A stretch of DNA of 64,000 nucleotides from Gammaproteobacteria bacterium (GCA_021648525.1 JAKISP010000012.1:1-64000); one strand, 5' to 3'; positions 14,801 to 21,195 are shown, counted from the first letter of the stretch. A program made the numbers and translations. The notes: generated from the letters alone by a model not told the origin.

Positions 14801-15042
14801 TCATTCGCGACGATTACCTGATTCCGACAGTCTCCTGGATTTCTATTCATGAATTTCTTATGAAGAACGACATATTAGTTGGTTTATTCATGATTGATAA
14901 TTGATATCGTTTCGTTTTATATTATTAGCAGCTTAATGGTTCATTTTTCATTGTGAATTTGTATAGCTGCTCACAAAATAGATGTTTGGATTGCGGTTTA
15001 ATAGCTGCATGATCTATGTTGTTATTTTTATGGGGATAGTTG

Positions 15043-15540
15043 ATGCAATACCTTCCAAAAGTAGCGGTAATATTTCTAGCAATATTTTTTTCAAGTGCTG
15101 TTTTTTCTGCCGGTTCTGCGCCTGACTTTGAGCTTGAGGGATTAAATGGCAAGGTGAAGTTATCTGATTATAAGGGCAAGGTGGTGTATCTGGATTTTTG
15201 GGCATCCTGGTGTGGTCCTTGTCGAAAGTCATTTCCCTGGCTGAATGATATGCAGACTCGTTTAAAGAAAAAAGGCTTTAGGGTTGTTGCCGTTAATCTT
15301 GATACTAAAAGAGCAGATGCGGATAAATTCCTTAGCGAGTTGAAGCCGAATTTTGATATTGCGTTTGATCCGCCGGGTGACGTTGCTGGGATGTATGAAC
15401 TACAGGGCATGCCAAGTGCATATCTAATCGATAGAAATGGTGAATTACATAGTGTTCATATGGGGTTTCGCGATAAAGATATTCCTTTGTTGGAACGTGA
15501 AATTGAGGCGCTACTTAACCGCAGTAAAAAAATGAAATAA
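15043..15540 (+). CDS. TlpA-like periplasmic thioredoxin
   Basis: A TlpA/ResA-type thioredoxin-fold protein, probably a periplasmic thiol reductant. A signal peptide (VAVIFLAIFFSSAVFSA) precedes an AlkA/TSA-like redoxin domain with the active site WCGPC (FWASWCGPCRKSFPWL) and the cis-proline region GMPSAYLID. The ATG at 15043 follows GGGGAT. It stands one base before the DUF4266 lipoprotein gene and starts the four-gene cassette ending in an ApbE-like gene. A natural job would be to keep the cysteines of the DUF4266 C-terminus reduced; this is inferred only from the neighbourhood. Confidence 0.9.
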   Translation: MQYLPKVAVIFLAIFFSSAVFSAGSAPDFELEGLNGKVKLSDYKGKVVYLDFWASWCGPCRKSFPWLNDMQTRLKKKGFRVVAVNLDTKRADADKFLSELKPNFDIAFDPPGDVAGMYELQGMPSAYLIDRNGELHSVHMGFRDKDIPLLEREIEALLNRSKKMK

Positions 15541-15541
15541 T

Positions 15542-15790
15542 ATGAAAGCACGATTTAATTATAGTTTGTTACTAACCATCCTTTTTCTTTCCGGTTGCTC
15601 CACCTTTAAACCTGGTGGAATGTTTGCTCATGAAGAAGTTAAGCCATGGCAAAAGGCTATGTTGGCGGAAGAGCGAATGCAGTTAAATCCATACTCCTTA
15701 GAAAATAGTGCAGATCAAAAAATGTTTTATAGTCGTGAAAGTGCGAACGGTGGACAGGGCGTTGGTGGAGGGGGCTGCGGGTGCAATTAA
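15542..15790 (+). CDS. DUF4266 small lipoprotein with Gly/Cys-rich C-terminus
   Basis: An 82-residue protein of the DUF4266 family. It has a lipoprotein signal with the box LSGC (lipid-bearing C19), a middle VKPWQKAMLAEERMQL motif, and a conserved tail YSRESANGGQGVGGGGCGCN that ends in two cysteines separated by one glycine. The function is unknown. The tail looks built to present a thiol or metal site, or to be modified. It is sandwiched between the thioredoxin gene and the DUF3570 gene, and its last ten bases overlap the GTG start of the latter, so the two are translationally coupled. Confidence 0.88.
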   Translation: MKARFNYSLLLTILFLSGCSTFKPGGMFAHEEVKPWQKAMLAEERMQLNPYSLENSADQKMFYSRESANGGQGVGGGGCGCN

Positions 15791-17112
15791 AAAATAAGAA
15801 GTTGCAACCGAGTTTATCAAAGCCTACGGTACGTCATGCGTTAACAGTGGCTACGTGCGCCGTATTATCCGGTTCTCTATCAACGGTTAGCGCGGTTGAA
15901 GAAGAGGAGAGTGACCTTTCAAAGATAGGTCTGTCTACATTCTATTACACCGAAAAAGATCGTGTTTCAGTGAATACGACTCACGTAGCCATTGAAAACG
16001 ATCTTGGTGATGATGCTTTGTTAAGAGCAAATATCATCTACGACACGGTCACTGGCGCTTCACCTAATGGACGAATTATTCCTGCTGTGGCCAACAGCAG
16101 CAATATCCCATTTACCTCAGCATCAGGCTTCAGTATCAATGTTAATGATAACGGTAGCGCCGGAAAAAGGTGGCTAACGGAGTTTACTGACAAAAGAGCA
16201 GCACTAAACCTCAGTCTGGAAAAACCGCTTACCCGCACCTTAAAGGGTACTATTGAGGGGAATTATTCATCTGAAAATGATTTCACTTCTTATGGTGCAG
16301 CCGGGACAGTTTCATGGGATTTAAATCAGCGTAATACGACTATTACCAGTGGCTTAGGCGTGTTAAATGAGAGTGTTTCTCCTGCTAGTGGCACCCCCTC
16401 AGGGCTGGGTGTTTCTAATTGTAATGACACGGCACCTGTGTTGCCCACCTGGGCTAATTGTAATGTAACAAGTCCTCGCTTTGGTAATGGAAAAAAGCGA
16501 ATATTTGATGGCATGATTGGCGCAACACAGATAGTGAACCAGCGTACAATTACACAGTTAAACTATAGTCTTGGTGTCTCTCTTGGTTACCTTACCGACC
16601 CATATAAATTAATTAGTGTTGTCGATAACACGATTGATGGCGAAGAGGTGATGATTCTCTATGAAAACCGGCCAGACAGGCGTACAAAGCATAGCCTTTA
16701 CTGGAAGACGGTTAGCCAGCTTAGCGAAAAAAAGGTGATCGATTTTTCGTATCGATATTTTTGGGATGACTGGGGTATCACATCCCATACATTTGACTAT
16801 AAGTATCGTTATGATTATAAAGAAAAGAGCTTTTTACAACCGCACATTAGATTTAATCTTCAGTCGAACGCCGATTTCTTTCAGCGAGCGATCGATTCTT
16901 CTGTAGCCAGTTTGCCACAATACGCAAGTGCAGATTACCGCCTGGGAAAACTATCGACCTACAGTATCGGCATGAAGTATGGAAAAGAACTGGGCGTGAA
17001 TGGCTCATTTGCTGTACGCGCCGAATATATTATTCAGAGCTATTCCGGTGTAGACTTACCGGATATGAAGGCGCTAGTATATCAGGGGACATTTACCTTT
17101 AAATTTAAGTAA
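15781..17112 (+). CDS. DUF3570 envelope protein with possible flavinylation motif
   Basis: A 443-residue DUF3570-family protein with a long N-terminal export signal (ALTVATCAVLSGSLSTVSA) and alternating beta-strand-like sequence throughout, ending YQGTFTFKFK, which suggests an outer-membrane or periplasmic beta-rich protein. Residues 88-94 read DTVTGAS, matching the Dxx[ST]GA[ST] pattern to which ApbE enzymes attach FMN; T91 would be the acceptor. An ApbE-like gene lies next in the cassette. The start is GTG at 15781 inside the end of the DUF4266 gene, preceded by GGAGGGGG. Family function is not established; the flavin proposal is inference. Confidence 0.88.
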   Translation: MQLKNKKLQPSLSKPTVRHALTVATCAVLSGSLSTVSAVEEEESDLSKIGLSTFYYTEKDRVSVNTTHVAIENDLGDDALLRANIIYDTVTGASPNGRIIPAVANSSNIPFTSASGFSINVNDNGSAGKRWLTEFTDKRAALNLSLEKPLTRTLKGTIEGNYSSENDFTSYGAAGTVSWDLNQRNTTITSGLGVLNESVSPASGTPSGLGVSNCNDTAPVLPTWANCNVTSPRFGNGKKRIFDGMIGATQIVNQRTITQLNYSLGVSLGYLTDPYKLISVVDNTIDGEEVMILYENRPDRRTKHSLYWKTVSQLSEKKVIDFSYRYFWDDWGITSHTFDYKYRYDYKEKSFLQPHIRFNLQSNADFFQRAIDSSVASLPQYASADYRLGKLSTYSIGMKYGKELGVNGSFAVRAEYIIQSYSGVDLPDMKALVYQGTFTFKFK

Positions 17113-17253
17113 CTATTCAGCTCACCCCTGAGTTGTCCGATTACGGCGTCAAAAATTCTCATTTACACGTGTAAACTGCGAGTTTTTTCCTTGTACTTGA
17201 ACAAATCAGGGGCAATCTGAACAGTTATTAATTTCAATAGTTGAGCGATCCTT
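17113..17253 (+). other. Gap with 14-bp palindrome between DUF3570 and apbE genes
   Basis: The gap holds a perfect 14-bp palindrome, TTTACACGTGTAAA, at 17162-17175. It lies inside a longer imperfect hairpin: AAAAATTCTC before it can pair with GCGAGTTTTTT after it, so it may act as a terminator or attenuator between the two genes. CCCCTGA near 17126 and TCAGGGG near 17206 could close an outer stem. The 140-base spacing is much wider than elsewhere in the cassette, so the ApbE gene may be separately expressed. Confidence 0.55.
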
Positions 17254-18150
17254 ATGGATGAAGCGCTAGCGATTTCTCTGGAACGTCAGAATAATTTATG
17301 GGTCGGACGGTTTAGTGCAATGGCTAGCCCGTGTGAATTATTGCTGGATACGCCAGATGAAACGCTGGCGTATCAGCTTGTTGCTATTGCTGAGCGTGAG
17401 GCAAAGCGAATAGAGCAAAAATTCAGTCGTTATCGCGACGATAACATCACTTTCAAAATCAATAATGCGTTGGGTCAATCTATTGAGGTTGATGCAGAAA
17501 CAGCTTTGTTACTGGACTACGCAGATCAGTGTTATCAATTGAGTGATGGACAGTTTGACATCACCTCTGGTGTTTTACGTGAGGTGTGGCGTTTTGATGG
17601 CGGTGATGGTATTCCTTCATCATCCGCAATTAAATCAGTATTATCTCGCGTTGGCTGGTCTAAAGTTAACTGGGAATCTTCTATTCTAACCATGGATAAA
17701 GGAATGGAGATCGATCTGGGTGGTATAGGGAAAGAGTATGCGGTCGATCGCGTTGCACAGTTAATTAGACCTTATCTTCGGAGCGGGGTATTGATTAACT
17801 TCGGCGGGGATTTGTGTGCGTTAGGGCCTCGTTTAAATGGTCAGCCCTGGGAAGTTGCCATCGAAGATTCAGAGAAGAGTGAAAAATCACAGGCAGCCCT
17901 GGTGAGTCTTAATAGGGGCTCTGTTGCCACGAGTGGTGATGCACGGCGATTTTTAATTAAAGATGGGGTGCGCTATGGTCATATTCTGGATCCGGTGACA
18001 GGCTGGCCTGTTCCTGACGCACCCCGTTCGGTGACAACCGTTGCATCAACATGCATGGAGGCGGGTATGCTTTCGACATTTGCAATTCTTAAAGGGGCTG
18101 GGGCAAAGGATTTTTTACGGCAACAGGAAGTAGAGTTCCTCTGTCTTTAA
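17254..18150 (+). CDS. apbE: FAD:protein FMN transferase (ApbE-like)
   Basis: ApbE enzymes cleave FAD and attach FMN covalently to a threonine or serine of target proteins. Family signatures are present: MASPCELLL, FSRYRDDN, the SDGQFDITSGVL segment, MEIDLGGIGKEYAVDR, NFGGDL, and the metal-site region SVATSGDARRF followed by GHILDPVTGWPV. The product (298 residues) has no signal peptide or lipobox, unlike most bacterial ApbE proteins, and an in-frame TGA just upstream of the ATG excludes a longer version. It may therefore act in the cytoplasm. The likely substrate in the neighbourhood is the DUF3570 protein. Confidence 0.94.
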   Translation: MDEALAISLERQNNLWVGRFSAMASPCELLLDTPDETLAYQLVAIAEREAKRIEQKFSRYRDDNITFKINNALGQSIEVDAETALLLDYADQCYQLSDGQFDITSGVLREVWRFDGGDGIPSSSAIKSVLSRVGWSKVNWESSILTMDKGMEIDLGGIGKEYAVDRVAQLIRPYLRSGVLINFGGDLCALGPRLNGQPWEVAIEDSEKSEKSQAALVSLNRGSVATSGDARRFLIKDGVRYGHILDPVTGWPVPDAPRSVTTVASTCMEAGMLSTFAILKGAGAKDFLRQQEVEFLCL

Positions 18151-18225: not shown

Positions 18226-19638
18226 TTAGGTTGCTTCGTTTGGTGCAGTTTCATCTAATGGTTGCTCATCATTCAGCACCCCAGTATTTTGAACACCAAA
18301 ATACTTGTAAACTGTCGAAGCGATTGCAAATGGCTCTGCCTGATAACTATCTTCGGTGGGTGAGGTAAACTGTCGATTAACCCCTGAGGAACCAATACGT
18401 TCCGTTTTACCGACGATCTTACCCAGACCCCGCCCCGGGATTCCTTTTCCGCCGAATGTCATGAAATTTTGATTGTTGCCGTGATCCCAGCCAATCGAAT
18501 TATTCAAATTCACATTACGCCCAAATTCACCATAAACGTTGATAATAATATTGTCACGCCCAGCCGCGCTCATGTGGTTTACAGCCACTTCAAGTGATGT
18601 CATCAAATCTCGCATTCTGTCCGGGTACTCTTCCAGGCAGGAGTCATGGTCATCCCAGCCACCCAGTCCACCGCTGCCCATAGAAATGAACAGGCTATCA
18701 GGGTTATTGACCGCAAGACTGACGGCCGCTTTCAGACGGCGTCCAAAATTAGTATTGGGGTAGGTAATTCCTAACCCGAGTAGATCTGCATCAACTCTTG
18801 CCGCATTAAAGCTACTGCTTATAAATTCAGAGAGTTCCTTTCGCTTAGTAAAGGCTTCACGAACTTTTAAGAATTTTTCACCTTGAGCATTACTTCGCGC
18901 AAGTGCTTCAATTGCGTCTTCATTAATGCCAGCACCACCTATTGCTGAATTATTGTTTCTATCGTAGGGATTTCTAAAATTCTGATCCAGCGCGATGTAT
19001 TTAGTGGCCAGTGGAATATCAAGTCCAGCGGGCTGGAATACTAATGAATCACCTTCAAACGAGACAAAAGGTAAAATCATATCTTCCGGTGCCTTACCAA
19101 ATGCATTATGAGCACTTAAAACGGCCGCTACAGTCGTGCCTATTCCAGGTGTATTTTCAGCATCTAGATGTCCAGTCAAGTTTTGAAAGATACTGGTACG
19201 ATGTGTTTTAGAATCTTCTTTGAGGCGGTTAATCGTTCGATAGATACTCATGTCACCAGAGGCGATCAAGCTTTCCATGATCTCACCACCAGCACCATTG
19301 TCACCGCCACCCCAGAAATTATTGGGTGTGATAATAGAACCAGAGTCAGCTGGATCCATATTCGTTGGATATGAATTTTGTGAGTTAGCATTAATATCTT
19401 CAATATTAGTCAGATTCCCAGCCAGCTCAGAGGGCCCACCATAGAGAAATACATGGATAATCTGTGGTAACACCGCCGGACGAACATAGTTCACTTCATT
19501 TAAAACAATATTGTTTGCGTCGCCAACATTGAGTGCTGCCATACTGGGTGAAATAAGATTTCGCCCTCCCAGCATAGATGCAGCTGTGCAAGCACCACCC
19601 AGGACACCAAGATGTTTAAGAAATTGTCTTCTTTCCAT
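18226..19638 (-). CDS. DUF1501 protein with Tat signal
   Basis: DUF1501 proteins are exported, sulfatase-like fold proteins of unknown reaction that are almost always paired with a DUF1800 gene. The product has a twin-arginine signal (MERRQFLKHLGVLGG, then ACTAASMLGG), the family stretches IIHVFLYGGPSELAG and LFISMGSGGLGGWDDHDSC, and the metal-site-like NVYGEFGRNVNLN followed by GWDHGNNQNFMTFGG. The length of 470 fits. It follows the DUF1800-like gene by 15 bases, so the two are one operon. What it hydrolyses or binds is not known. Confidence 0.9.
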   Translation of the reverse strand: MERRQFLKHLGVLGGACTAASMLGGRNLISPSMAALNVGDANNIVLNEVNYVRPAVLPQIIHVFLYGGPSELAGNLTNIEDINANSQNSYPTNMDPADSGSIITPNNFWGGGDNGAGGEIMESLIASGDMSIYRTINRLKEDSKTHRTSIFQNLTGHLDAENTPGIGTTVAAVLSAHNAFGKAPEDMILPFVSFEGDSLVFQPAGLDIPLATKYIALDQNFRNPYDRNNNSAIGGAGINEDAIEALARSNAQGEKFLKVREAFTKRKELSEFISSSFNAARVDADLLGLGITYPNTNFGRRLKAAVSLAVNNPDSLFISMGSGGLGGWDDHDSCLEEYPDRMRDLMTSLEVAVNHMSAAGRDNIIINVYGEFGRNVNLNNSIGWDHGNNQNFMTFGGKGIPGRGLGKIVGKTERIGSSGVNRQFTSPTEDSYQAEPFAIASTVYKYFGVQNTGVLNDEQPLDETAPNEAT

Positions 19639-19653
19639 AATAAGGATTCCTGC

Positions 19654-21195
19654 TTAGTTAATGCTGTTGTTAAAGTATATTTCAGGCAGTCGAGAAACGT
19701 AATCAAAAATAATGCGTGCCTGATTGGGGCGGTTATTTAGATAATTTCGATTGGTGATGACCCCGCTTAAAGTGGTAATTTCCTCCGTAGAGGCTTTGCG
19801 ACCAAGACTACTTAAAAAGAGGTAGTGGATAAAATCCTCATCAGTTAAATCGGATGCTTTTTCAATGAAGTCTGATCCCCAGCTATTATTGTTAGCATTG
19901 CTGCTGCTGTAGCGAGTCAGTAGCTGTTCACGTACCAGTTTATGGTAATAAGAGAAGCTGAGTGAATCGAGTGGTTGAAAGGGCCATCGACCAAGCTTCA
20001 ATGTCATACTGGGTTGTTTCATCTGAGATAGGGTTGGAAATGAAGCACCTCCAGACGGGTCATTTAATCGCCTGAAAAAATTGCTGTCGGGTTTCCAGTC
20101 TACTCGGTGAGCGATATTGAAAAAAGTTTCTTCCACACGTTTTGGACGATCGCTATTAAGCAGGTATTCGCGTGAAAAAATAATAGCGGTAAAGATGTGT
20201 TCAAAACGAGTAGGATTACTGGCTACGATACTTTGTACGAGCATAGCGCGTGTCTCCTGCCCCATATCAACAAAAAAATGATCAACCAGTACATTTACCA
20301 TTCTGGCAATGACTCTAGGATGATTTGAAACGGTGCGGTAAAAATCAAAACAATTATTGATCCATTGCCCCAGCACTTTTTGCGGCACGATGTTTTCATC
20401 GAGGGTGATGACTAACTGGTAATCCTGGTTGTCACCTGTTAAATACCAGTTTTGACAGGCCTGTGATGCTTTGGGGACTTCATCATCTTGATCAAACAGG
20501 CCAAGATAGATCTCGATCATCTCTCGAGTGTTGTCCTCAGGTGAGCGAAATCGACGCCAGTTCTCCTGAGAGATCATGTGCTGATAGATAATCTCACGTA
20601 TGGTCATGTTGGAATTCATACGACTAACCAGTTTGCTATAGACCCTGTGAACATCAAAGTAATCTGCTGAGTCCATTTCCAGCGCGGGTGAAAACAATAT
20701 GGTGTTCGAAAGGTTGTAGGCCATCCAGTGAGTAAAGTGATCTCGACTAACGGGTAGGTCATACATCATCGCTATCGGCATTTCCTGCGAATAACGTGTT
20801 GAGTTGAAATTATAGTTATCGCTAACTTGTTGGAGATACTCGTTGGCATTGGGAAGTTCCTGTGTCATTGAGCGAGCAGTGCGATTGATGAAATCTCCCC
20901 CCTGACCCATTTTTGGTGTAGTTAACCCTTGTTTAAGGTCAAAAAATTCATCGGCAGGAATGCCTTTATAAAGCGTACTCATCAACCGATTTGCCACCAC
21001 ATACTGTTTTTCTGCTGATAATTGCCTGTATTCATGGGAGGAAAGGGCGGCTGCCTGACCTTGGACGACTTGAGCACCAAACATGGTGGTAGAAGCATCA
21101 ACCGCTCCAGCCTGACCCTGAGAGTCAGGTTTGCATGCGGTTAATGCGGATGTCGCTAATATCAGAAATACAGCTCGTTTTATCGTATCTCTCAT
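19654..21195 (-). CDS. DUF1800-like lipoprotein
   Basis: A 513-residue exported protein with a lipoprotein signal ending at C21 (LATSALTACKPD). The helical, YHKLVREQLL- and FNSTRYSQEMP-containing body, its size and its place directly before a DUF1501 gene make it the likely DUF1800-type partner, though sequence similarity to the core family is not obvious by eye. It carries HRVDWKPDS-like and FLSSLGRKAS motifs, the latter resembling the LYxRxPxxxE motif of planctomycete cytochrome-associated domains. Function is unknown. Confidence 0.7.
   Translation of the reverse strand: MRDTIKRAVFLILATSALTACKPDSQGQAGAVDASTTMFGAQVVQGQAAALSSHEYRQLSAEKQYVVANRLMSTLYKGIPADEFFDLKQGLTTPKMGQGGDFINRTARSMTQELPNANEYLQQVSDNYNFNSTRYSQEMPIAMMYDLPVSRDHFTHWMAYNLSNTILFSPALEMDSADYFDVHRVYSKLVSRMNSNMTIREIIYQHMISQENWRRFRSPEDNTREMIEIYLGLFDQDDEVPKASQACQNWYLTGDNQDYQLVITLDENIVPQKVLGQWINNCFDFYRTVSNHPRVIARMVNVLVDHFFVDMGQETRAMLVQSIVASNPTRFEHIFTAIIFSREYLLNSDRPKRVEETFFNIAHRVDWKPDSNFFRRLNDPSGGASFPTLSQMKQPSMTLKLGRWPFQPLDSLSFSYYHKLVREQLLTRYSSSNANNNSWGSDFIEKASDLTDEDFIHYLFLSSLGRKASTEEITTLSGVITNRNYLNNRPNQARIIFDYVSRLPEIYFNNSIN

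Follow-up and report, generated by a model that had tools for sequence, protein, structure and literature searches.

Introduction

To our knowledge, nearly all known routes by which electrons cross the outer membrane are porin-cytochrome systems. The described gene clusters that most resemble the locus considered here hold a flavin transferase, ApbE, and a protein of the DUF3570 family. Méheust et al. (2021) reported that in Chlorobium luteolum the cognate ApbE flavinylates DUF3570 on serine within two [S/T]GA[S/T] motifs, and that Ser-to-Ala substitution at both sites abolishes the modification (PMC8238504). For this the two proteins were co-expressed in the cytosol and DUF3570 was purified from insoluble material, an experiment that does not address its native location. 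The same survey counted 227 DUF3570 clusters with DsbD, VIT1 iron transporters being present in 25, and 316 DsbD-less clusters in which ApbE and DUF3570 occur with DUF4266 and a thioredoxin-like protein (PMC8238504). The cassette type and the flavinylation of DUF3570 are therefore already known. In the available text of the 2021 paper and of a 2024 paper, DUF3570 is not named a barrel; the latter does list the outer membrane among the places where confirmed substrates reside, and its authors may already be aware of the DUF3570 barrel.

Here we analyze a cassette of this kind in a 64,000-nucleotide stretch of a gammaproteobacterial genome (the window, whose first letter is position 1). We computed the flavinylation motif, the fold of DUF3570 and the side bias of its conserved residues, the missing signal peptide of ApbE, and the CxC tail of DUF4266, and we infer a modification site and an electron path. 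The cassette is probably a small envelope redox kit in which ApbE attaches flavin to DUF3570.

Organization of the locus

The four open frames of the cassette are all present on the plus strand. An exported TlpA/ResA-like thioredoxin (15040–15540, starting at TTG 15040 or ATG 15043) is followed by a DUF4266 lipoprotein (15542–15790; PF14086, E 6.6e-19), by DUF3570 (15781–17112; PF12094, E 2.5e-100), the GTG start of which overlaps the DUF4266 stop, and by the FAD:protein FMN transferase ApbE (17254–18150; PF02424, E 9.6e-68), which has no signal peptide. The original prediction, made from the bare sequence, spoke of four adjacent same-strand genes, which is correct for frames and strand but not in the sense of strict contiguity, because a repeat of about 120 bp splits DUF3570 from ApbE. 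This dispersed, palindromic, MITE-like element (17113–17235, no strand assigned) lies outside the system. It has 15 matches in the genome, some of them the element matching itself on the opposite strand, its DNA fold has a z score of -3.9, and it is missing from the close relatives L076 and L077. A related copy occurs in L075, where it is flanked by AAATTTAA. Promoter and terminator scans of the locus gave matches at chance level only.

Two associated genes lie on the minus strand. The first, convergent to the cassette, encodes a DUF1501 protein (18226–19638; PF07394, E 6.4e-12) with the Tat-like N-terminus MERRQFLKHLG, and its upstream partner encodes a 513-residue lipoprotein (19654–21195). 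The lipoprotein has no Pfam match at E 1e-3, the weak match to PF13946 (DUF4214) being at 0.0084, and no match to DUF1800.

The flavinylation motif and the acceptor residue

The motif DTVTGAS occupies DUF3570 residues 88–94 (nucleotides 16042–16062, plus strand), exactly as first described, and a motif scan finds no other [ST]GA[ST] in the protein. Its conservation had been proposed beforehand as a check, and it is strong and not a matter of chance. In an alignment of the window protein with 120 relatives (a sample of 229 genomes of the class supplied 40 loci, named genomes the other 80), position 88 is Asp or Glu in 120/120, position 91 Ser or Thr in 118/120, position 92 Gly in 115/120, position 93 Ala in 101/120 and Ser in 18/120, and position 94 Ser or Thr in 120/120. 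Within the window's own branch, all 92 non-redundant members have D88, G92, and G97, and all 92 have Ser or Thr at position 94.

ApbE modifies the last residue of its motif, as established for the NqrC/FMN_bind family. For this reason the acceptor would be S94 (codon 16060–16062) and not T91, the residue originally named; we rejected FMN on T91, since in the published cases it is the final motif residue that accepts the flavin. The published serine-to-alanine result fits this rule. By analogy to the C. luteolum homologue (PMC8238504), we predict S94 as the FMN acceptor and consider its ApbE-dependent modification highly probable. The broader idea of covalent FMN on DUF3570 with a redox role in the envelope is likewise supported, but having been published for the homologue it is not new. 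The FMN_bind profile (PF04205) does not match the window protein, for which DUF3570 is the only Pfam match.

The published clusters have two motifs and the window protein one. A second motif is found in the branch formed by L064, L067, and L068 (there as MSGAT/S) and in few other proteins, and in the AlphaFold2 model of L064 the two sites lie at opposite ends of the same strand 3–strand 4 loop. At the corresponding place the window protein reads FTSASG, a candidate relic that we rejected as an active site because it lacks the Gly and is not conserved. The published wording of "two conserved motifs" spans 228 proteins, and the single motif marks a one-site variant rather than exclusion from the group.

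Other DUF3570 proteins depart further from this pattern. In a second subtype (L069–L074) the motif is mostly D-x-ISSAS, with no Gly, and the conserved upstream genes are different ones, by eye including a large lipoprotein-like and an SH3-like protein. At L040 (4366–7077) a 904-residue frame combines DUF3570 with several motifs of the [ST]GA[ST] or SSAS type, with a further DUF4266 and a fragment of DUF3570 nearby on the other strand.

DUF3570 is predicted to be an outer-membrane barrel

The protein had been described as exported and beta-rich, which says too little. An AlphaFold2 model built on 22 sequences is a 16-stranded barrel (pLDDT 77.5, pTM 0.77) with strands from residue 47 to residue 442, closed by an even number of antiparallel strands; residues 103–107 and 118–133, in the loop after S94, fall below pLDDT 50. 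The two-site homologue L064 is likewise modeled with 16 strands (pLDDT 75.4). Over residues 42–442, VIA-align matches BamA, PgaA, CymA, OmpG, and porins with Z scores of about 16–22, and the matches from Foldseek and VIA combined are porins, OmpG, FadL, PgaA, and BamA. A search of the DUF3570 profile against the sequences of solved structures found no relative, the only hit being 5fid at E 0.08. A C-terminal aromatic residue is a signal of outer-membrane barrels; 70/91 DUF3570 chains end in Phe, Trp, or Tyr, and the window protein ends in FKFK where its close relatives end in FKF. That DUF3570 is an outer-membrane barrel is a prediction rather than a solved structure, but one in which we place great confidence.

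In the model, the long loops (residues 92–135, 199–237, 269–300, and 361–391) are all on one side of the barrel. The long-loop side of outer-membrane barrels is generally extracellular, and we assigned the outer side on the basis of this rule. Near-invariant columns are concentrated there (38/40, compared to 184/324 other columns; Fisher p 5e-7), and the bias persists when only strands are counted (15/17 compared to 93/200), with the proviso that the 80 named-genome loci were found by the pattern GYLTDPYK, so that its columns are favored in that set. Most of these columns are also invariant in a 22-sequence set obtained by profile search and not selected for the pattern. The FMN site is predicted to lie among the conserved columns on the outer side, with S94 at the outer end of strand 3.

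ApbE lacks an export signal

The ApbE open frame is only 301 residues long, with 24 residues before the conserved AMASPCE. It matches PF02424 with 229 bits (cut-off 25.6) and, aligned to Thermotoga maritima ApbE (1vrm, E 1.4e-38), keeps the segments DLGGIxKxYAxD, TSGDxxR, and HILDPxTGxP. The signal peptide or lipoprotein anchor typical of extracytosolic ApbEs is absent from the window protein and from about 78/79 relatives. By a hydropathy measure (KD >= 2) rather than a trained signal-peptide predictor, a hydrophobic stretch precedes the conserved start in 1/79 cassette ApbEs, compared to 105/107 DUF4266 proteins and 75/89 thioredoxins. The missing signal does not affect membership in the family, because cytosolic ApbEs are known. 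The available text of PMC8238504 does not discuss it, and neither the missing export signal nor the outer-membrane location of DUF3570 appears to have been described before. In the DSISSAS subtype, the adjacent ApbEs at L070 and L072 have a signal-peptide-like start.

We lean toward the view that FMN is added to DUF3570 before export. Alternatively, the linked ApbE might serve another cytosolic substrate and leave DUF3570 to the genome's other ApbE, encoded on contig C11, which does have a lipoprotein signal. The missing signal peptide of the linked enzyme would agree with such a division of labor, as would the ApbE from Klebsiella, which also has none and acts on cytosolic fumarate reductase (PMC12052999). 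However, the linked ApbE is a conserved neighbor of DUF3570, the cognate ApbE modified C. luteolum DUF3570 with both proteins produced in the cytosol (PMC8238504), and the C11 enzyme likely has a substrate of its own in the genome's single FMN_bind protein, which is encoded on contig C4 beside frames read by eye as RnfD and RnfE. We regard this arrangement as very improbable.

The thioredoxin and the DUF4266 lipoprotein

The thioredoxin has the signal peptide MQYLPKVAVIFLAIFFSSAVFSA and the active site WCGPC; WCxPC is found in about 87/94 relatives. Its Pfam matches are PF00578, PF08534, and PF13905 (AhpC-TSA, Redoxin, and Thioredoxin_8; E 1e-24 to 4e-18), and the best NCBIfam subfamily is ResA, below cut-off.

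DUF4266 ends in GGGGCGCN, as originally noted, and thus has the C-terminal CxC characteristic of the published family; the ending GGGCGCN is found in 106/113 relatives. The lipobox is FLSGC, with Ser at position +2, where most relatives have Ser or Ala. Ser or Ala at this position predicts sorting to the outer membrane. In most relatives 51 residues separate the lipidated Cys from the CxC. Electrons may pass through this Cys-rich lipoprotein, as the original prediction had it.

Co-occurrence and genomic neighborhood

Co-occurrence of ApbE with DUF3570, the other check asked for earlier, is borne out. Among the 229 genomes of the class sample, ApbE is present in 59/59 genomes with DUF3570 and in 164/229 overall (hypergeometric p 7e-11), and DUF3570 is present in 54/54 genomes with DUF4266 (p 4e-47), both p-values ignoring shared ancestry. 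ApbE lies within 6 kb of DUF3570 at 88/121 loci and all four genes within 6 kb at 77/121, counts for which some contigs end early. Several loci have an intact motif and no adjacent ApbE. Culturable carriers of the system include Marinomonas polaris and Alteromonas lipolytica (loci L131 and L140).

The DUF1501 gene faces the cassette at 21 loci, mostly in the same position and orientation, and the lipoprotein gene is present at 18. The pair accompanies the cassette in several gammaproteobacterial families and in Nitrospirota (Manganitrophaceae). The two Manganitrophaceae loci might suggest some connection with Mn(II) oxidation; the Manganitrophaceae genome paper does not mention DUF, thioredoxin, or ApbE. 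We did not find the association of this pair with the cassette, the one-site branch, or the frequency of the GGGCGCN ending in the literature searched.

Other loci carry instead DsbD (13), MsrP/MsrQ (9), or a cupredoxin (7), neighbors that fit redox work in the envelope. They also bear on a relay confined to the periplasmic side, in which DsbD would feed thioredoxin, DUF4266, and flavinylated DUF3570 to reduce a periplasmic substrate such as damaged proteins or ferric iron that is to be taken up, with no crossing of the outer membrane. This is the model published for the 227 DsbD-linked clusters, including the 25 with VIT1 (PMC8238504). The predicted fold is, however, that of an outer-membrane barrel whose conserved residues lie on the outer, loop side, and in this genome DsbD is unlinked, the only DsbD_TM match being on another contig (C53). 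We therefore judge a purely periplasmic relay to be unlikely, though a serious contender.

Divergent MsrP/MsrQ-like genes, encoding a molybdopterin oxidoreductase and a ferric-reductase-like membrane protein, lie beside the cassette at L035, L045, L047, L090–L094, and L100. In the Alteromonadales loci L109, L125, L150, and L154, the genes directly upstream of it encode a cupredoxin and an unclassified small exported protein, and at L109 and L150 genes for a sensor kinase and of response-regulator size are also found upstream.

Sensor kinase genes lie near 43 loci, but such genes are common everywhere. Together with the porin-like fold, they could speak for DUF3570 being an outer-membrane receptor or channel in which FMN has a structural, gating, or redox-sensing role and no electrons reach an outside substrate. 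Such a role is improbable, as the thioredoxin and the CxC lipoprotein are linked at most loci, which argues for redox turnover.

A model for electron transfer

We slightly favor a model in which FMN is attached to DUF3570 before export and the barrel, supplied by thioredoxin and DUF4266, relays electrons at the outer membrane or through it. The signal-less ApbE would move FMN from cytosolic FAD to S94 before or during export; DUF3570 would be exported by Sec and then fold as a 16-stranded barrel, with FMN toward the outer mouth of the lumen, where invariant charged and aromatic residues form a pocket around it. DUF4266, sorted to the outer membrane, would offer its C-terminal Cys-Gly-Cys to the barrel and exchange thiols and disulfides with the periplasmic thioredoxin. 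With FMN taking the place of heme, electrons would thus run between the thiol pool of the periplasm, tied in the end to the unlinked DsbD, and a substrate at the outer membrane or outside it. Taken by itself, electron transfer at the outer membrane via DUF4266 and thioredoxin has about an even chance of being correct. Among the points against the favored model is that DUF4266 would be anchored in the inner leaflet and FMN is predicted near the outer face, so that the 51-residue tail would have to enter the barrel. The most specific version, a heme-free "flavoporin" that receives FMN in the cytosol, passes Sec unfolded, and conducts electrons through the outer membrane while the CxC tail of DUF4266 reaches into the barrel as its periplasmic contact, is rather doubtful.

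If the model is correct, the flavin-bearing barrel would provide a heme-free alternative route across the outer membrane, and the action of a signal-less ApbE on a protein of the outer membrane would imply that a chain already bearing its cofactor crosses the inner membrane. DUF3570 has a Pfam match in 59/229 gammaproteobacterial genomes sampled (about a quarter), the SSAS-type subfamily included. The parts worth following are the barrel, the outer-side FMN site, and the signal-less ApbE.

Comparison with known systems

The locus shares with the clusters of Méheust et al. (PMC8238504) the four families, DUF3570 and ApbE being neighbors accompanied by DUF4266 and a thioredoxin-like protein, as well as the [ST]GA[ST] acceptor, the CxC tail of DUF4266, and the DsbD-less subtype. 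It differs in having one FMN site instead of two and an unlinked DsbD, and it adds the signal-less ApbE and the attached DUF1501 and lipoprotein pair. The Klebsiella enzyme (PMC12052999) resembles our ApbE in lacking a signal, but its substrate is a cytosolic enzyme and not an exported barrel.

Like the fused cytochrome-porin Cyc2 (PMC8406198), DUF3570 would be a 16-stranded outer-membrane barrel with a single redox cofactor. Unlike Cyc2, it would carry FMN and not heme, with the cofactor toward the loops instead of the periplasm, and it has no N-terminal cytochrome domain; a heme barrel of the Cyc2 type is ruled out by the absence of CXXCH from the DUF3570 sequence. The likeness to porin-cytochrome conduits of the MtrCAB type is a functional analogy only: as there, an outer-membrane barrel would work together with redox partners. 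The cassette encodes no multiheme cytochrome, and its predicted barrel has 16 strands instead of 26.
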